Shown here: positions 3,001-9,898 of the stretch, piece by piece
Layout of the letters: every line of letters starts with the position of its first letter
Numbering within the stretch: position 1 is the stretch's first letter
Virus record (IMG/VR): IMGVR_UViG_3300048026_001045
Location: 1 to 24,111 of that record
Reading direction: 5' to 3' (one strand)
From: a virus
DNA: 24,111 bases
Position numbers and translations under genes: made by a program
The notes under the pieces: model-generated
Seen by the model: the letters and a program-made list of their open reading frames with translations, nothing else
Databases searched by the model: none
What the model was told of the DNA's origin: nothing

Positions 3001-4208
3001 TAAATGTTGTAGAACTAGATGCTACAGATCTTTATACTCCTGCTTTAGAAAGTATTACAGTTACTGATACTATTGGTGCTGGTGAAGGAACTGCAACTGT
3101 GACTTCTGGAAATAGTACAGTAACAATTTCTGCATCAGGCGATGATATTACTTGGATGGCCGATGGTGGAGATTATTTACTAGATAGTTCTGGAACATTT
3201 GTTGGTGAGATTTGGGATATACTTAGTGCTACTCAAGTTACCTTAAGAGGTGGTGCCGCGATACCGTTATCTGCTGCTGCTTTCCAAATTCAAAATAACA
3301 ATCACATTAAATTTTATGATCTTGGTGGAAAAGGTATTATTGAAACAAGTTTTGATACTGCAGATAATTTACTTGGAAATGCCTCTATTGGCAAACACCT
3401 TTATATTAGTAATATATCAGATAGAGTAAATGGTACTCATCAGATAGAAGATATTACTATTGAAGCTGCTGAACCAGGACGTCCAGGAAATACTGATGGA
3501 GATAGAATTACAATTACTTTAGCTGCTCCATTCGGAGCTAATTCAGTTATGAGATTAAATATTGTTGATGATACATTCAGCTTTTTTGGATCTGGAGATC
3601 TTACCGCTAGTACTTCAACAACTTTACTTTTAGGTGGTGGCAGTGCTGATTTTATTAATGAAGTATCAGTTGGAGATATAATAACTCATTCTGATGGAAC
3701 AGTAATTGGAGAAGTTGCTTCTATAACTTCAGGCAATGAGCTTGAGCTTACTAGTAATTCACCAATTAATTTCAACAGCGATCCATATACAGTTAAAACA
3801 AATCTTGGACCGAGTCCAACATATGCAATCCAGCAATTAGATAAGTATGTAGAAGATTATGCTCCTTCTGGATCTTATAACTATGCAAACTATATTACTA
3901 GACCACTATATCTAAATGAACCAGCAGATTCAATTAAAATTCTATTTGATGCAGAAATTTTAACATCATCAACCATAAAGGTATATTATAGAATTGGATC
4001 TGGGACTGAAGATATTTACAGTAAAACATTCACTGATACCGGATTTATAAATACTATTATAAACCCGATTGGTGAATTCACTCAAAGAGAAATTGACGTT
4101 GCGGATATTGATCCATATACTAAAATTAGTATAAAAATAGTAATGAAATCAACTAATCCAGTTAACGTTCCAAAAATTAAAAACTTAAGACTTATAGCGT
4201 ATTCATAA
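1..4208 (+). CDS. Large virion structural protein, 5' end outside the window (baseplate/fiber-associated, DUF4815-like)
   Basis: The frame is open from base 3 to the TAA at 4206-4208, and the ATG at 159 is an internal methionine. About 52 codons precede it without a stop and read as normal protein (for example RDDYRAAVDPLNKILRP), so the true start lies upstream and more than 1400 residues are visible. The text is Gly/Ser/Thr/Asn-rich and beta-strand-like, with no signal peptide or membrane segment. The segment around the DDYRAAVDP and LRPMHF motifs resembles the very large DUF4815-type virion proteins of marine T4-like phages (recalled, not searched). A middle part with DPVAQTFTV and GETYALIVKTDEPG looks like a jelly-roll, possibly carbohydrate-binding, module. 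By position it is a baseplate or tail-fiber component. The stop overlaps the next ATG by one base (TAATG), which suggests coupled translation. Structural role is likely; exact identity is uncertain. Confidence 0.8.
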   Translation, partial: LTADLQITDPVTGIDRFKNGFITDQFTGHSLGDVKRDDYRAAVDPLNKILRPMHFTSSLDIIEDVSSQAERASAGYQKTGDVITLPYTEESLIFNPYGSRDIDVNPYKIGAFKGEITLNPEGDNWKEVDRRPDLTVTDDNGYDAIKFIADELGITGTQWNEWTTNWTGSSSTTRTWQTGDPNRRRQTVTGYEETITTLDGVSSRTGVQTNVSSAVNTQDYGDRVVDLSYIPYMRARPVVFTAVNLKADTKFFPFFDNKSVNDYVIPAQIFKVQNSAGSSYMDFDPVSIQQGVISDQYERMQNGKVEPAYSVGDVVTNSSHNAVNISSITHLTSTGSSFTLDVADPSGILPGHHVMLYNLAANASITATLSGDNISIPESTITDYSKNTSSELNLKKFKVLAVNGNSVILSNIDNSDISAFSAYDLAAYTADAGKLLRLTASGVVAFQGVLDDETAPNTTPREIHLVNIKNGFGVGETITGNITTAGGQVNSVDIVSINGQTDTTLPATMKTSADDLRTDNWGSVVGVFNIPNSDQLAFRTGERKFKLTDNRTNDDTDFDSKGSAVYYSTGIQLSKEATVVNSRDVRFVEDRLYESLPVRRTSTSQRVLYSYWTGHDPVAQTFTVNADGGAMVTSVDLYFSEAGNRPVTVELRTTNQGVPSTKIIPFSSVTKTPQQISTSINGSVATTFTFEAPLYLMEGETYALIVKTDEPGCKFFISEIGKTDVVTGNIITSQPLTGSLYLSQNSLEFEINPLYDMKFNLKKATYTINPVTVDLKTSLPEAMTLQNNPFTIATGTNKVRVNARNHGFRANDIVIISNVAEGIYGADGVNGIPSSVLNSQHTVAALGLDKDSFVIEIPTADSSGQSLISGSLSDLIRGDYGGSDIIMSRQLNMDMMYLKSGSVAVKGTNIDYSVNHESFGVNTFRPIVGDSNYMFDSRETILSYENQTVISSSPLIKRSSLRVQATLTSDNPNVSPVLDLQKGAAYIVSNLVNNAQQNDVNVVELDATDLYTPALESITVTDTIGAGEGTATVTSGNSTVTISASGDDITWMADGGDYLLDSSGTFVGEIWDILSATQVTLRGGAAIPLSAAAFQIQNNNHIKFYDLGGKGIIETSFDTADNLLGNASIGKHLYISNISDRVNGTHQIEDITIEAAEPGRPGNTDGDRITITLAAPFGANSVMRLNIVDDTFSFFGSGDLTASTSTTLLLGGGSADFINEVSVGDIITHSDGTVIGEVASITSGNELELTSNSPINFNSDPYTVKTNLGPSPTYAIQQLDKYVEDYAPSGSYNYANYITRPLYLNEPADSIKILFDAEILTSSTIKVYYRIGSGTEDIYSKTFTDTGFINTIINPIGEFTQREIDVADIDPYTKISIKIVMKSTNPVNVPKIKNLRLIAYS

Positions 4209-4456
4209 TGTCAAAAATTCAAGTAAAAGGATATTCTAATCTAGTTAAAGACCCTACCTCTGGTGGAGTTGTTAATAACGATTCTCAAGCTTTTCTAGAC
4301 TACAAAAGAAAAAGACAAGCAGAGCTACTTAGAATAAATGATAAAAAAGTAACTGATATTCGTCTATCTGAGATAGAAAATGATATAAATAAACTAAAGT
4401 CAGATACTGATTATATAAAAAATGCGCTAAATACTATTATTAGCAAATTAACTTAG
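4208..4456 (+). CDS. Small coiled-coil protein coupled to the large virion protein
   Basis: This gene encodes 82 residues starting at the ATG inside TAATG, so its translation probably depends on ribosomes finishing the upstream gene. The N-terminal third (KGYSNLVKDPTSGGVVNND) looks extended and flexible. From about residue 27 to the end it is charged and strongly helix-forming, with heptad-like spacing of I and L (IRLSEIENDINKLKSD), which suggests a coiled coil that could trimerise. I recognise no named family. The gene sits inside a late structural cluster with no gaps, so a small virion or fiber-connector protein is the likeliest role. Its stop codon TAG at 4454-4456 forms part of the TAGGA ribosome-binding site of the next gene. 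Confidence 0.7.
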   Translation: MSKIQVKGYSNLVKDPTSGGVVNNDSQAFLDYKRKRQAELLRINDKKVTDIRLSEIENDINKLKSDTDYIKNALNTIISKLT

Positions 4457-4467
4457 GAATATTATAA

Positions 4468-5214
4468 ATGGCTGCAACATTAACATTAAGATCTGTAAAG
4501 GGCACTCCTCTTACAAATAACGAGGTAGACGCTAACTTTACTAATTTAAATTCGGAAATTTCCACACTGGAATCAGATGTTAGCACTGCACAATCCGATA
4601 TTGTTGCATTAGAAGGATCAGTAGGTCCATCAGCAATTGGAGAAACAGTAGCTGACATTGTTGGAAATATGGTAACAAGCAATACAGAATCTGGAATTTC
4701 TGTTTCATATGATGATAATGATAACACTTTAGATTTTGATGTAGCTGATTTTACATTAACTATTGATGGAGATGCATCTGGTAACGCAACGATTTCTAAT
4801 CTTGCAAATGCTACTTTAACTCTAGATATTTCTTCTATTATTGGATCATTAAATGTGGGCGGAGGTATTAGTACTTCTGATTTATCTATGACAGGGTCTA
4901 TTACTAACGGCGTAGATGCTACTTTTACTGGCGACGTTAACGCAGCTAATTTTAATACAACGTCAGATATAGCTCTTAAAGATAATGTTGAGTTGATTGA
5001 ATCTCCATTAGATAAACTTTTGCAATTATCAGGTTATACCTTTGATTGGAAAAACAACGGAAAGTCCTCTGTTGGTGTTATGGCACAAGAAGTTGAAAAA
5101 GTATTTCCTCAAATTGTGTCTACTGATAATAACGGTGTAAAAAGAGTTTCTTATGATTCTCTTATTCCACTATTGATTGAGGCAATTAAAGAATTATCAA
5201 ATCTTAAAAAATAA
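4468..5214 (+). CDS. Short tail fiber protein with C-terminal S74 intramolecular chaperone/autoprotease domain
   Basis: The protein has 248 residues. The N-terminus (LTLRSVKGTPLTNNEVDANF) is a common start of phage fibers, followed by a short coiled coil (about residues 25-50) and beta-rich repeats. Residues 166-248 are a peptidase S74 domain: SDIALKDNV at 166-174, then FDWK, GVMAQEVEKVFPQIV and a helical LLIEAIKELSNL end. In the endosialidase family this domain trimerises the fiber and cuts itself off with a Ser-Lys pair spaced five residues apart. Ser166 and Lys171 have that spacing, so cleavage just before Ser166 is expected. TAGGA at 4454-4458 is the ribosome-binding site. The segment VADIVGNMVTSNTESGI and the S74 domain are paralogous to the end of the 727-residue fiber at 14039-16222. 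Confidence 0.85.
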   Translation: MAATLTLRSVKGTPLTNNEVDANFTNLNSEISTLESDVSTAQSDIVALEGSVGPSAIGETVADIVGNMVTSNTESGISVSYDDNDNTLDFDVADFTLTIDGDASGNATISNLANATLTLDISSIIGSLNVGGGISTSDLSMTGSITNGVDATFTGDVNAANFNTTSDIALKDNVELIESPLDKLLQLSGYTFDWKNNGKSSVGVMAQEVEKVFPQIVSTDNNGVKRVSYDSLIPLLIEAIKELSNLKK

Positions 5215-5227
5215 ACTAAGCTTAGTT
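5214..5227. repeat. Perfect 14-bp palindrome in the intergenic gap
   Basis: AACTAAGCTTAGTT reads the same on both strands. It begins at the last base of the stop codon of the S74 fiber gene and ends shortly before the AAGGAG ribosome-binding site of the glycine-rich fiber gene. No T-run follows, so it is not a standard terminator. It could form a small hairpin in mRNA or serve as a binding or recombination site; nothing in the sequence decides between these. Confidence 0.5.
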
Positions 5228-5243
5228 CATAAGGAGAACGATC

Positions 5244-6950
5244 ATGGCAATTAAAGTATCGGGTACTACCGTTGTTGATAACAGTAGGAACCTAACAAAT
5301 GTCGAGTCAGTCTCGGTATCAGGTACAGGGTTTTTAGCCCTACCTGCAGGTACTACAGCTGAACGACCAAGCTCACCTTCTAATGGTATGGTGCGCTATA
5401 ATACAACAACAAACCAAACAGAAGTATATGCTAATGGAGCATGGGGTGGATTAGGTGCAGATCTAATTGCATTTAACAATACTGTACAAAGTAGCTATAC
5501 AATAAATGAAAATGCTTCATTTGACGAATATATGAATGCTACTTCAGCATTTACTGGAACATCAGGCATTACTTACTCAATTTCGTCTGGGTCTCTTCCA
5601 GCAAATATGTCGTTGAATACAAGCAATGGTCGCGTTTCAGGTAATGCTCCTGATTTAACTGCAACTACAACTTATACAGTTACATTTGAAGCTGATGATG
5701 GCATTAATACTACTTTAAAAACAATAGACTTTGTTATTAATGCTGATAACGATGCTCCTATATGGAATACTGGTGCGGATCTAGGTACAGCAACCGGTGG
5801 CTCTTTTTCAAGAACACTTCAAGCAACTGATCCTGAAGGCCAAACAATAACATATGCACTGGCTAGTGGATCTTCTTTGCCTCCTAACACTACATTGAAT
5901 TCTTCAAGTGGTATTCTTTCAGGCACTTCTACTACAACAGGAACATCATATAGCTTTACAATTAATGCATCTGATGGTACTAATACTGTTGGACGTACGT
6001 TTACTCTTCTTTATGGATATCCAACTGTTGGATCAGATGGCCAATCATATGCCGGTGGTACAGTTATTAGCTCTGGTACTGGTGTACAATGGTTTAATAA
6101 TTCGACGAACAATCAATCGCATACATTTACAGTTCCAAATACTTCTTCAGTTAACGTAGTAGTAGTTGGTGGTGGCGGCGGTGGCGGTCCAAACGGTGAT
6201 ACACAACATGGTGGTGCTGGTGGTGCTGGTGCACACGGAAACTATTCAGTTAGTTCTGGTCAAAGCTATACAGTAAATGTAGGTAAAAAAGGAGAAGCTA
6301 CAACAAGTTCTAGTAATTCTACAGGCGGAACTTCTTCTTTTGGTCCATTTATTTCAGCTGGTGGTGGTATTGGATCTTACCAAATTCAATATCTTCCTCT
6401 TGGAGGAAGCGCATCAGGCGGAAATAGTGTAAACAGTAATGGTGGCCGTGGTGGTTTTGGTACTTCAGTACCTACCGATATGGGTTGGTATAATCAGTAT
6501 CCAAGTTATCCACAACAAGCTACTTCAGGTTATGCCGGTGGTGGCGGTGGTGGTACACCTTGGTCATCTTCATCTGCTTCTGGTGCTAGAAATGGCGCAT
6601 CTGCTAGTGGTAAATTTGGCGGTGGTGGCGGTGGTGCTGCTCGTCAAGCTTACTCAGGTAGTGGTGGTTCACCAGCAGGTAGTGCAGGCGGCGGCGGTAG
6701 CGATGGATACGCTGGTGGCGCAGGTGCTTCTACATTTAACTCTGGTTCTGCAGGTGGTGGTCCAGTTGGTGGTAGCGCAGGCCACGGTAGCTGTGATCCA
6801 CGTGGTTGTAACCACGCTTGTACATCTCAAGGCGGTGGCGGAGGTGGATCCTTCGGCGGCGGTGGTGGTGCTTCAGGTGGCTGGGGCGGAGGCGGCGGCC
6901 AAGGTGCCGGCGGTCTTGTCATTGTCAACTGGGGTAACGTATCCCACTAA
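5244..6950 (+). CDS. Glycine-rich tail fiber/adhesin with two Ig-like domains
   Basis: The protein has 568 residues. Residues 1-70 are a typical fiber N-terminus (LPAGTTAERP, GMVRYNTTTNQTEVYANG). Two putative Ig-like beta-sandwich domains of the cadherin/He_PIG type follow at about 72-167 and 168-256, with paired signatures LPANMSLNTSNGRVSG and LPPNTTLNSSSGILSG. Residues 305-568 are extremely glycine-rich with runs of five to seven Gly, separated by short variable loops rich in Tyr, Trp and Ser. Gly-rich domains of this kind occur at tips of phage adhesins such as gp38 of T4-like phages, where the loops contact the receptor. Only three cysteines exist, clustered with two histidines at 514-526 (HGSCDPRGCNHAC), perhaps a metal site or disulfide. 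A strong AAGGAG site precedes the start. The halogenase gene follows after 30 bp. Receptor binding is inferred. Confidence 0.85.
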   Translation: MAIKVSGTTVVDNSRNLTNVESVSVSGTGFLALPAGTTAERPSSPSNGMVRYNTTTNQTEVYANGAWGGLGADLIAFNNTVQSSYTINENASFDEYMNATSAFTGTSGITYSISSGSLPANMSLNTSNGRVSGNAPDLTATTTYTVTFEADDGINTTLKTIDFVINADNDAPIWNTGADLGTATGGSFSRTLQATDPEGQTITYALASGSSLPPNTTLNSSSGILSGTSTTTGTSYSFTINASDGTNTVGRTFTLLYGYPTVGSDGQSYAGGTVISSGTGVQWFNNSTNNQSHTFTVPNTSSVNVVVVGGGGGGGPNGDTQHGGAGGAGAHGNYSVSSGQSYTVNVGKKGEATTSSSNSTGGTSSFGPFISAGGGIGSYQIQYLPLGGSASGGNSVNSNGGRGGFGTSVPTDMGWYNQYPSYPQQATSGYAGGGGGGTPWSSSSASGARNGASASGKFGGGGGGAARQAYSGSGGSPAGSAGGGGSDGYAGGAGASTFNSGSAGGGPVGGSAGHGSCDPRGCNHACTSQGGGGGGSFGGGGGASGGWGGGGGQGAGGLVIVNWGNVSH

Positions 6951-6980
6951 TTTATTATAAAAATTATGAGTTTTAATTGA

Positions 6981-8474
6981 ATGAAAAAAATTAACAATAT
7001 TTGTATTGTTGGCGGAGGATCGGCAGGTTGGATGACTGCCGGTCTTCTCGCTAAAAATCTTCCCTCATTTATAAAAGTAACTTTAGTTGAATCTCCAAAT
7101 ATTCCTACAGTAGGAGTTGGAGAAGCAACTTTAGTTTCGTTTAGAAATTTTATGAATGATTGCGGATTCGATGAAGATAAGTGGATAGATGAAGTTGATG
7201 GACTTTATAAATGTGGAATTAAATTTATAGATTGGATAGAAAAAGGACATATTATATGGCATCCTTTTACTTCACTAGCCCAACCAACACATGATTTAAC
7301 CTCAGCACATTTATATAAAAATAGTGTTAACAATAATTTTGAAGAATTTTCTAAGTATTGTATTCCAAATTATACCTCTACAGTTGAGCACGAAAAAATT
7401 GATGAATCAAATGTTGGCTATCATGTAGATGCTGCTAAATTAGCAAGATTTTTTATTAATAACAACGAATCTGTAAATCATATTTTAGCACATGTAGAAA
7501 AAGTCAATACTGAAAACAACCAAATTTCTTCTATTGTTTTGGATAATGGTAATATAATTGAAGCTGATATATTTGTAGATTGTACAGGTTTTAAGAATCT
7601 TGTTTCTTCTAATATTGATGGAGCAAAATGGATAAATAAATCAGAGTATTTAGGAGCTAACGCAGCTGTCGCAGCTCCAGTAAAATATGATGATCCATCT
7701 ATTGAAATGAAGCCATTTACAACCGCAAAATGCTTAGATATTGGATGGATGTGGATAACTCCAGTCCAAAGTAGAATTGGATCAGGAATAGTATTTAATA
7801 AAGATATTACTCCAGTAGAAGAAGCTATGGAAACCTATGATAGTATATGGAATAAAGACCGTAGATTAAAAGATTTTAATGTTATTTCATTTGAGCCAAA
7901 ATATAATAAAAGATCTTGGAGAAGTAATGTTGTTTCTATTGGTTTATCTTCTGGATTTGTAGAGCCCTTAGAATCTTCTGGTTTAGAATTTATTATACAA
8001 GGAGCTTCTGTGCTATTAAGTAGAATTCGCAAAGGTTATTTTATAGAATCAGATGCGGATTTTTATAATGCTAGAATGTCATTCCAATACGAAGAAACTT
8101 TTAATTTTATTCAACTTCATTATTTGAATAGTAAAAGAGAATCTAAATATTGGGATTTTATACGCAATAAGCCTATTCAAAACGAACTTCTACAAAAAAT
8201 AGAATATTATAAAGATCATGGTTTACAGTTTAGAGAAATGCCCGGTGATTCTATTTTTGCGCATCATAGTTGGATCATCTTAATGGAAGGTGCTGGAATT
8301 GATGGAGGATTTTCTTCGTACATTCCAAAAGAATCTGCTATAGAATTGCTAAATGATAGATACCGTTTACACGAAATGCAAACTCACCAGAATAGATTTA
8401 CAAACTTTGAAGTTATGAATAGAAGAAAAGCTGTAAATAATTTTAAAGGTTTAATAGAAAATGGAAAACAGTAA
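6981..8474 (+). CDS. Flavin-dependent halogenase (tryptophan-halogenase family, PF04820; VirX1-like)
   Basis: The protein has 497 residues (PrnA has 538). FAD-dependent halogenases use FADH2, O2 and halide to make hypohalous acid, which is guided by a lysine to an aromatic or other electron-rich substrate. Visible features: the FAD-binding GGGSAGW at 11-17; GVGEAT at 45-50; Lys77 in YKCGIKF, aligned with catalytic Lys79 of PrnA (FKAAIKF); the family motif FxxPxxSxG at 326-334; and Glu331, aligned with PrnA Glu346. The WxWxIP motif that marks these enzymes is altered to WMWITP at 256-261. No flavin reductase gene is visible, so FADH2 would come from the host. Viral members are known: VirX1 of cyanophage Syn10 is an iodide-preferring halogenase. 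The stop overlaps the next gene by 14 nt. Family assignment is firm; substrate and halide preference are unknown. Confidence 0.93.
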   Translation: MKKINNICIVGGGSAGWMTAGLLAKNLPSFIKVTLVESPNIPTVGVGEATLVSFRNFMNDCGFDEDKWIDEVDGLYKCGIKFIDWIEKGHIIWHPFTSLAQPTHDLTSAHLYKNSVNNNFEEFSKYCIPNYTSTVEHEKIDESNVGYHVDAAKLARFFINNNESVNHILAHVEKVNTENNQISSIVLDNGNIIEADIFVDCTGFKNLVSSNIDGAKWINKSEYLGANAAVAAPVKYDDPSIEMKPFTTAKCLDIGWMWITPVQSRIGSGIVFNKDITPVEEAMETYDSIWNKDRRLKDFNVISFEPKYNKRSWRSNVVSIGLSSGFVEPLESSGLEFIIQGASVLLSRIRKGYFIESDADFYNARMSFQYEETFNFIQLHYLNSKRESKYWDFIRNKPIQNELLQKIEYYKDHGLQFREMPGDSIFAHHSWIILMEGAGIDGGFSSYIPKESAIELLNDRYRLHEMQTHQNRFTNFEVMNRRKAVNNFKGLIENGKQ

Positions 8475-9180
8475 GTTAACTATAATTATTATTTACAAAG
8501 ATACTCCCTTTGACCCTAATAATCATATGATTAGATCAATATATGATTTACAAGAAGCAATCAATATAATTCAAGAGTATTGTAGTCAAAGAGATTTCAA
8601 AGTTGAAGAAAAAATAATTTTACAATATGATGGTTCTAATATTCTGGAAATAGATTCAGATATTATTTGTCCTGATCTTTTCAAAGATGAATTTCAACTT
8701 TTTGCTTTATTTAATTCTAAAGAATTAATTGAAAAATCTCATGGGTATTATAACTTTCCTCAAGATGGGTGGAAAGAAGATATAAAAGTAAAGAGGTATC
8801 CTCACTATTTTAAAATACTATTAAAAAGTGATATTTCAGATGATATTGAGGATAAAGAAGTTAAAAGAAGAATTTTAGCAATATTTAAAGATTATTGTAA
8901 TAGATCCTTGAATCAATACATTGCTATTGAACCTGGAGTAATGGTAGACTATAATAAACTTAAAGATGTACGTCATCTTTCACAAGATCAATCAACAAAA
9001 ATTGCTAAAATAATAAGAGAAGTTAGAAAAAAAGAATCCGAATATGAAGATATTATAAATAACATTGAGGATCCAAAAGTAATATACGATTATTATGTTG
9101 AGGGCCCTGATGAATTATTTGTTATATTAGATAAATATCAAATTACTCGACCTACAGAGTTTAAAGGAGAAAATATATGA
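8461..9180 (+). CDS. Unknown protein, middle gene of the halogenase cassette
   Basis: This gene encodes 239 residues and I recognise no family. The N-terminus (KLTIIIIYKDTPFDPNNH) looks like a first beta-strand of a mixed alpha/beta fold rather than a signal peptide. The protein is soluble-looking, rich in Lys, Asp, Glu and Ile, with an aromatic stretch GYYNFPQDGW near residue 95 and a charged helical region at about 165-205 (IAKIIREVRKKESEYEDIINNIED). I see no Walker, HxD or nucleotide-binding motif, and no flavin reductase signature. The start ATG lies inside the 3' end of the halogenase gene (14-nt overlap) and the stop overlaps the following ATG (ATGA). The three products are therefore very likely made together, and a function connected with the halogenase or with fiber maturation is possible but unproven. 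Confidence 0.75.
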   Translation: MENSKLTIIIIYKDTPFDPNNHMIRSIYDLQEAINIIQEYCSQRDFKVEEKIILQYDGSNILEIDSDIICPDLFKDEFQLFALFNSKELIEKSHGYYNFPQDGWKEDIKVKRYPHYFKILLKSDISDDIEDKEVKRRILAIFKDYCNRSLNQYIAIEPGVMVDYNKLKDVRHLSQDQSTKIAKIIREVRKKESEYEDIINNIEDPKVIYDYYVEGPDELFVILDKYQITRPTEFKGENI

Positions 9181-9803
9181 CATACGCAGTAATCCAACAC
9201 GGTGTTGTTAATAGCTTACACGCGGAAGATCCTTCCGACAATTACCATCCAGACGTTGAAATTATAGAAATCACAGGAGCGCTTGATGGCGTTATTGATG
9301 ATTTACTAATTGAAAATGTACCAGTTGACTGGAATGGTAGTAATTTTAGTATGAATTTAGATTCACTTAAAAAATATATGAGACATCAAGTAAAAGAAGC
9401 TCGTAAATATAAAGAAGCTGATGGAATTTGGGTAGATGGAAAAAGATACCACTCAGATAGAGAATCAATTGTCTTAATCCAAGGCTCAAAGGTTTTATTT
9501 GACTCGGATTCTTCGTTAGTTATTTCATTTAAAGCAGATCCAGAGCCATTAAGAACACCATTAGATCCAGAATCTGCAGAAGGAAATCTGTCTATCAGTG
9601 AAGACATTGATAAAAATGCAGATTGGGTAGAAGTTGATGCAACTGCGTTTGCAGCAATTCATGATGCAATGTTAAACCATGTTTCAAAATGCTTTAAAGC
9701 TGAAAAAGCTGTTAATGACCAACTCACTGCAGCTTCTAGTCAAGCGGCATTAGTAGCTATGAAACCTTCAACATTATTTGATACAGCATTTGATGCACTT
9801 TAA
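9177..9803 (+). CDS. DUF4376-type protein, possible tail fiber assembly factor
   Basis: The protein has 208 residues. The C-terminal two thirds match the DUF4376 pattern as I recall it: a helix with KEARKYKEADGIWVDGKRYHSD near residues 73-95, an IVLIQG segment, then DWVEVDATAFAAIHDAMLNHVSKCFKAEKAVND near 150-185. This family is common in tailed phages next to tail fiber genes, often annotated as tail fiber assembly or chaperone proteins. The N-terminus (MTYAVIQHGVV) is the usual short beta-hairpin start of such proteins. It overlaps the upstream gene by four bases (ATGA) and is the last gene before a strong terminator. The placement behind a glycine-rich fiber and the halogenase suggests that it helps to fold, assemble or modify fibers; that role is inferred. 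Confidence 0.75.
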   Translation: MTYAVIQHGVVNSLHAEDPSDNYHPDVEIIEITGALDGVIDDLLIENVPVDWNGSNFSMNLDSLKKYMRHQVKEARKYKEADGIWVDGKRYHSDRESIVLIQGSKVLFDSDSSLVISFKADPEPLRTPLDPESAEGNLSISEDIDKNADWVEVDATAFAAIHDAMLNHVSKCFKAEKAVNDQLTAASSQAALVAMKPSTLFDTAFDAL

Positions 9804-9828
9804 TTTTTTTTATTAAAAGTTAAAAATA

Positions 9829-9858
9829 AAGGGAGAATTTAGGTTCTCCCTTTTTATT
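9829..9858 (+). terminator. Intrinsic terminator closing the halogenase cassette
   Basis: A perfect 10-bp stem (AAAGGGAGAA at 9829-9838 with TTCTCCCTTT at 9845-9854) encloses a 6-nt loop and runs into a T-rich tract (TTTTTATTTTAT). It lies 25 bp after the stop of the DUF4376-type gene and directly before two late promoters, so it separates two transcription units. Confidence 0.9.
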
Positions 9859-9862
9859 TTAT

Positions 9863-9870
9863 ATAAATAA
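9863..9870 (+). promoter_or_regulatory. T4-type late promoter (distal of a tandem pair)
   Basis: Exact match to the T4 late promoter box TATAAATA, which is recognised by the phage sigma factor gp55 with gp33 and the gp45 clamp. It sits in the gap between a terminator and the start of the next gene. Transcription should start roughly 6 nt downstream of the box. Confidence 0.75.
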
Positions 9871-9890
9871 TGGTAAGAAGTGTTTTTCTT

Positions 9891-9898
9891 ATAAATAA
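9891..9898 (+). promoter_or_regulatory. T4-type late promoter (proximal of a tandem pair)
   Basis: Second exact TATAAATA box, 28 bp downstream of the first and 24 bp before the ATG at 9922. It gives a short leader that keeps the TAGGA ribosome-binding site at 9906-9910. Confidence 0.75.

Follow-up and report, generated by a model that had tools for sequence, protein, structure and literature searches.

The stretch of DNA analysed here (the window: 24,111 nucleotides of IMG/VR record IMGVR_UViG_3300048026_001045) is a 24-kb fragment of a T4-like marine myovirus, in which a predicted flavin-dependent halogenase gene follows the gene of a glycine-rich (Gly-rich) fibre. The 3' end of the window has the T4 order gp13-gp14-gp15-gp16-gp17-gp18-gp19-gp20, and a run of fibre genes lies upstream of gp13, a position that fits the 'host recognition cluster' described for pelagi- and cyanomyophages (PMC7029224). 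The best explanation that we can offer for this arrangement, tentatively and at somewhat less than an even chance, is a halogenase dedicated to the fibre and acting on it when newly made.

The features of the locus are listed in Table 1. A preliminary description of this DNA had reported the four genes from the Gly-rich fibre to the DUF4376 gene, with a gap of 30 bp between fibre and halogenase genes and overlaps of 14 nt (halogenase and orphan) and 4 nt (orphan and DUF4376 gene), together with a terminator and the sequence MGWYNQYPSYPQ at fibre residues 413-424; all these coordinates were confirmed. The terminator (-15.2 kcal/mol, z -3.1, none of 200 shuffles equally good) also stands as the end of the unit, whereas the start probably lies further upstream than described, at 4384 before the gene of the S74 fibre. 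The T4-type late promoter core TATAAATA occurs eight times in the window and never on the - strand, against an expectation of 4.2 for the two strands together, and five of these cores (4384, 9890, 16223, 20647 and 22965) are 25-80 bp 5' of a gene start. Since one core lies at 4384 and the scan of the window found none between the S74 fibre start (4468) and 9053, the S74 gene probably belongs to the same unit, which would likely extend from 4384 to 9853 and contain the S74 fibre, Gly-rich fibre, halogenase, orphan and DUF4376 genes. Both ends are sequence matches, and the unit is predicted to be a late-expressed fibre cassette within the host-recognition region. Two cores of the window are intragenic (4046-4053 and 9054-9061); the second, inside the orphan gene and 116 bp before the DUF4376 start, may drive the DUF4376 gene separately, also late.

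Table 1. Positions of the genes and predicted transcription signals at the fibre-halogenase locus
Feature	Position	Strand	Remarks
T4-type late promoter core TATAAATA	4384..4391	+	77 bp 5' of the 4468 start; likely start of the unit
Short fibre protein with C-terminal Peptidase_S74 (endosialidase chaperone) domain	4468..5214	+	PF13884, E 1.8e-14
Receptor-binding-type fibre, 568 aa: N-module, He_PIG, C-terminal Gly_rich_2	5244..6950	+	Pfam and PHROGs matches
Flavin-dependent halogenase, 497 aa, intact	6981..8474	+	PF04820
Orphan protein, 239 aa	8461..9180	+	No credible match anywhere searched
DUF4376-domain protein, tail-fibre accessory type	9177..9803	+	PF14301, E 5.4e-9; phrog_10508
Intrinsic terminator closing the unit	9828..9853	+	11 pairs and T tract
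Two late promoter cores of the next unit (9922 onward)	9862-9869, 9890-9897	+	TATAAATA match

The window fibre matches PF21722 (Gly_rich_2) with 32.4 bits (cut-off 24.3, E 1.2e-7), the immunoglobulin-like stretches of He_PIG (PF05345) with 59.7 bits (E 3.8e-16) and phrog_863 (tail fibre assembly), and its N-terminal module is common to the halogenase-linked fibres of loci L014, L017, L019, L027 and L080. The DUF4376 protein scores 36.9 bits against PF14301 (cut-off 25) and matches the tail fiber protein family phrog_10508 with E 1.6e-14; no relatives of it were found. For the orphan, Pfam, PHROGs, NCBIfam, phage records and IMG/VR viral contigs gave no credible match, and its AlphaFold2 model has a predicted local distance difference test (pLDDT) value of 42. 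The suggestion that these two genes are partners of the halogenase thus found no support, one being an orphan and the other resembling fibre-accessory genes.

The halogenase and its relatives

The halogenase matches PF04820 (Trp_halogenase) over residues 6-440 with 336 bits (cut-off 21, E 5e-100). The GxGxxG motif for flavin adenine dinucleotide (FAD) is present as GGGSAG at residues 11-16, and Lys77 and Glu331, equivalent to Lys79 and Glu346 of PrnA, are invariant in a seven-sequence alignment. Judged from these features, the gene is predicted to code for an intact flavin-dependent halogenase. Among enzymes of solved structure, Thal and PyrH are its best relatives, and with these, RebH and PrnA it has in common the family profile, the flavin motif and the catalytic Lys and Glu. 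The four enzymes differ from it by the Trp4 lid motif for free tryptophan, which the window enzyme lacks: neither form taken for the free-Trp groups A and B from Table 1 of PMC8269204 (YYHGF..YS or YYGNFEAEFRNFW..) is matched, YYHGFETYS of PyrH aligns with the SIFAHHS region of the window enzyme, and the alignment with Thal ends before the motif. The motif is likewise absent from MibH, BrvH and VirX1, and we count its absence in favour of an enzyme that acts on the fibre.

This absence also bears on the view that the gene is an ordinary auxiliary metabolic gene, a PrnA-like halogenase of free tryptophan parked in a hypervariable hot spot. Published annotations so state (PMC2984593; PMC9964418) and the region is indeed hypervariable. 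However, together with the lack of the free-Trp motif, the recurrence of the same fibre-halogenase pairing at two genomic addresses and the predicted late-promoter expression (see later in the text) make such a gene very improbable.

MibH, a lanthipeptide tryptophan halogenase of PF04820 without the free-Trp motif, has a peptide substrate (PMC8269204), although it belongs to lantibiotic biosynthesis and is not from a phage. QhpG, a halogenase-related flavoenzyme, dihydroxylates a Trp side chain within a protein (PMC7876137), a precedent that we count for action on the fibre, although the reaction is a dihydroxylation and the sequence similarity to the window enzyme is weak. By analogy with QhpG, the window gene might code for a flavin monooxygenase with the fold of the halogenases, and the fibre residue would then be hydroxylated or oxidised, not halogenated. 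Both the weak matches to the NCBIfam models of QhpG and LodB and the WxWxIP motif, which reads WMWITP in the window enzyme, point in this direction. Nevertheless, the QhpG and LodB scores are far under their cut-offs, neither Lys77 nor Glu331 varies in the alignment, the motif is WMWVIP in the nearest relative (L001), and halogenase activity is proven for VirX1 (PMC8407142), the Syn9 counterpart of which falls in the fibre-linked clade; we therefore regard a monooxygenase as improbable.

VirX1, the flavin-dependent halogenase of cyanophage Syn10 (PDB 6qgm) and a characterised viral iodinase, resembles the window enzyme as a viral PF04820 protein without the free-Trp motif. In Syn9 its counterpart (L006:10511-12103, with STLGHF and YPFGP motifs) sits in a Gly-rich fibre cassette, and by this gene neighbourhood VirX1 belongs to the fibre-halogenase cassette type. 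In contrast, the window enzyme falls in a different clade, shares 27-29% identity with the syn9 copies and has its own fibre type, and the orphan and DUF4376 genes follow it where VirX1-type cassettes have oxygenases. No relatives of substance were found for the window halogenase in genome contigs.

Fibre-halogenase pairing across related phages

The pairing was analysed in 28 complete T4-like marine phage genomes chosen by halogenase status (18 with, 10 without). PF21722 was over cut-off in 14 of the 18 halogenase-positive genomes and in 3 of the 10 halogenase-negative ones (Fisher p 0.02, the genomes being related). Among the 14 genomes with both, 10 have a halogenase <2 kb from a PF21722 fibre, compared with a mean of 0.87 and a maximum of 6 in 20,000 random placements. 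Both results argue for a halogenase tied to the fibre. The usual spacing is ∼0.5 kb, with one small gene (phrog_1787) between; the DUF4376 protein of the window was considered as a homologue of phrog_1787 and rejected, as no homology is detectable between them. Counted by genes, 14 of the 27 halogenases in the 18 genomes are within ∼2.3 kb of a PF21722 gene, and the freshwater phage S-SRM01 adds one, located between a tail-protein-like gene and an annotated gp37-gp38 adhesin tip complex (L180:2974-7582). About half of the halogenase genes are thus fibre-linked, so that halogenases mostly away from fibre genes, which the preliminary description had named as contrary to its idea, were not what we found. 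Its four-gene order was searched for in related phages and was seen in the window only, among all genomes and contigs examined; what recurs is the core fibre-halogenase pair.

Of 40 IMG/VR loci flanked on either side by 4 kb or more, the window included, 15 have a Gly-rich protein <3 kb from the halogenase and 24 a 2-oxoglutarate (2OG) oxygenase. When only the PF21722 profile was applied, 17 of 50 contigs with a halogenase matched, compared with 6 of 41 gp13-anchored contigs, a difference that is only suggestive because the contigs are fragments. No halogenase was found in the gp13-anchored sample of 80 contigs, most of which are short fragments.

In the relatives, the cassettes bring together Gly_rich_2 fibres, a fibre-accessory gene, one or two halogenases and several 2OG-Fe(II)/JmjC oxygenases; compared with the cyanophage type (Gly-rich fibres, phrog_1787, halogenase and 2OG oxygenases), the window is devoid of phrog_1787 and of oxygenases. 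The JmjC_2/Cupin_8 and 2OG oxygenase families include known protein hydroxylases, and we count the presence of a JmjC_2/Cupin_8 protein and 2OG oxygenases among the halogenase neighbours in favour of fibre modification. At the L001 locus (L001:8181-9572), a collagen-like (GPT repeats) and Gly-rich fibre is followed by a 125-aa gene, the closest relative of the window halogenase and three 2OG-Fe(II) oxygenases, and proline hydroxylation of this collagen-like fibre is possible. A collagen-like fibre as the general partner of halogenases was rejected: it holds for L001, but Gly_rich_2 fibres are commoner.

Fibre regions draw in foreign genes, and adjacency by itself is therefore weak evidence. 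Four further observations argue that the link goes beyond a shared hot spot. First, the cassette occupies two addresses, beside gp13-gp17 in S-RIM44, Sf-FP1, Sf-FR1 and Sf-CH11, and tens of kb from the terminase in syn9, P-TIM40, S-WAM1, P-RSM6, S-CREM1 and S-SZBM1. Second, in the nine genomes of the best-sampled group, halogenase distances correlate with fibre distances (r 0.91; partial r 0.86, Mantel p 0.0002) more closely than with terminase distances (r 0.57). Third, S-RIM44 isolate Np_42_0711 carries a block of three Gly-rich fibres, a phrog_1787 gene, two halogenases and oxygenases, whereas isolate W2_10_0709 has at the same place one fibre-like protein that is not Gly-rich, a 121-aa gene and one 2OG oxygenase; the gp13-side flanks of the two isolates are 96.6% identical, and the preceding large fibre genes are 71-79% similar in patches. 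Fourth, in a tree of 147 halogenase rows the Gly-rich neighbour label is clustered yet spread over several clades, with 15 changes, at least 12 of them forced by starred branches, so that the Gly-rich neighbourhood is not a single ancestral accident.

The predicted timing agrees with this. The published cyanomyovirus late promoter NATAAATA (PMC2984593) occurs <∼60 bp from the first fibre or phrog_1787 gene in most cyanophage cassettes, and it was not found between phrog_1787 and the halogenase in the cassettes examined, nor on the coding strand of the L001 stretch. The halogenase is therefore predicted to be late and made along with the structural proteins, which again favours a role on the fibre. 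The expected co-occurrence of halogenase and Gly-rich fibre was thereby borne out by adjacency, predicted late co-transcription, co-inheritance and, within S-RIM44, a block that varies as a whole. As fibre and halogenase are inherited and swapped together in many related phages, the Gly-rich fibre appears to be the leading candidate for the natural substrate of viral halogenases.

The main competing explanation is that the halogenase, together with its neighbours, acts on a glycan of the host surface or produces a halogenated small molecule, such as an antibiotic or superinfection-exclusion factor; their place near fibres would then reflect the exchange of host-recognition genes as one region. 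It is known that the fibre region forms a host-recognition cluster that includes lipopolysaccharide genes (PMC7029224), and the S-SSM7 halogenase is accompanied by a carbamoyltransferase, nucleotidyltransferases, a carbohydrate kinase and a phosphoheptose isomerase. Iyer et al. 2021 predict that the S-SSM6a cluster, which is related, yields a halogenated metabolite or decorates the capsule (PMC7824862). This S-SSM6a/S-SSM7 halogenase-carbamoyltransferase cluster resembles the fibre cassettes in having a halogenase and 2OG oxygenases downstream of Gly-rich fibres, and differs by its sugar-activating enzymes. However, the window and the L001 cassette are without sugar or metabolite enzymes, three PF21722 fibres lie 7 kb upstream of the halogenase in S-SSM7 too, and predicted late expression suits virion assembly better than host metabolism. 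We judge a glycan or small-molecule substrate rather unlikely.

Candidate target residues and significance

If the fibre is the substrate, a host reductase would supply reduced FAD (FADH2), sea-water halide would be used and hypohalous acid (HOX) would form at the flavin site; through Lys77/Glu331 it would then halogenate aromatic side chains of the new Gly-rich fibre, Tyr or His being likelier targets than Trp. The modification would alter receptor binding, stability or cross-linking, and the DUF4376 protein, perhaps with the orphan, would aid folding or presentation of the fibre and not catalysis.

The preliminary description had pointed to exposed Trp and Tyr loops as targets. This idea found no support: fibre residues 379-549 are modelled with pLDDT of roughly 20-45, a very low confidence for the Gly-rich part and its loops, and Trp content does not differ with or without a halogenase neighbour. 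Tyr differs at the border of significance (p 0.045) and His is higher in halogenase-linked Gly-rich domains (3.5 versus 1.4%), the rows being related in both comparisons. In phrog_1787-type cassettes, Tyr149 and His179 (numbering of the syn9 fibre, L006:6376-7176) are conserved in 19 of 19 linked fibres, compared with 1 of 8 and 0 of 8 unlinked ones. The linked fibres are a related group, the comparison set is distant and the window fibre is of another subtype, so this sequence conservation is a lead only. In the published S-SZBM1 virion proteome the large upstream fibre SSZBM1_52 is listed, and we found no entry in its text for the Gly-rich fibres SSZBM1_48 and SSZBM1_49 or the halogenase. 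Trypsin yields few usable fibre peptides, and the missing fibres are compatible with modification, poor tryptic coverage or absence from the virion.

Several observations weigh against fibre halogenation. In the 18 genomes, 13 of the 27 halogenase genes are away from PF21722 fibres, including that of S-SSM7 in its sugar cluster and that of S-PM2 beside tRNA genes, and 3 of 10 complete genomes as well as 6 of 41 contigs have Gly-rich fibres but no halogenase. Trp content does not distinguish halogenase-linked from other Gly-rich domains (p 0.71). Physical linkage alone explains part of the co-inheritance, and a single cyanophage group supplied both the distance correlation and the block difference. 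The closest relative of the window halogenase, L001 (49%), is the sole close one in the viral contigs. To our knowledge, no halogenated fibre has been described.

Phage halogenases as such are already known, with 20 of 153 cyanophage genomes carrying them (PMC10452541), and VirX1 has been characterised. In marine phages they are common, their native substrate is still sought and they are usually explained as host-metabolism genes; a tie to a specific, late-expressed and swappable class of host-recognition fibre gives a concrete, testable substrate. The literature searched, VirX1's original description being outside that scope, contained no link of phage halogenases to tail fibres. In its broad form, the proposal is that marine T4-like phages, late in infection, add Br, Cl or I to aromatic residues of the receptor-binding fibre that they make, through a dedicated enzyme that travels with the fibre. 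The fibre would then be a halogenated structural protein of a virus and the native substrate of VirX1-type enzymes; we hold this to be possible, with more doubt than belief. If true, phages tune their adhesins by covalent halogenation, probably combined with hydroxylation by the neighbouring oxygenases.

Other halogenase copies and arrangements

Halogenases off the fibres fall into several situations. In Syn1 and S-PM2 (L176:4995-6431 and L178:4995-6470) they form a separate lineage among small hypothetical genes, hli genes and a glycine tRNA, and S-RIM44 isolates of both types retain a further halogenase of the same lineage at about 170-172 kb; this lineage probably has a different role. The non-fibre halogenases of S-H38, S-B64 and P-SSM2 (L169, L170 and L179) are near annotated genes of endonuclease V, a recombination endonuclease or NAD synthetase. 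Short second copies in S-SSM7 (168252-169244) and P-TIM40 (183737-184705, record coordinates), with frames of ∼370-390 aa, match two separate parts of the profile only, the stretch between being missing.

Larger assemblies were also observed. Loci L017, L027, L065 and L079 carry three to five halogenase genes each with 2OG oxygenases, and in L017 and L027 the halogenases adjoin an S74 gene and three Gly-rich fibres, so that the window arrangement recurs there on a much larger scale. Finally, a gene annotated as ferrochelatase-like is repeatedly the last in the oxygenase run of the cassettes, for instance at L004:11120-11701.

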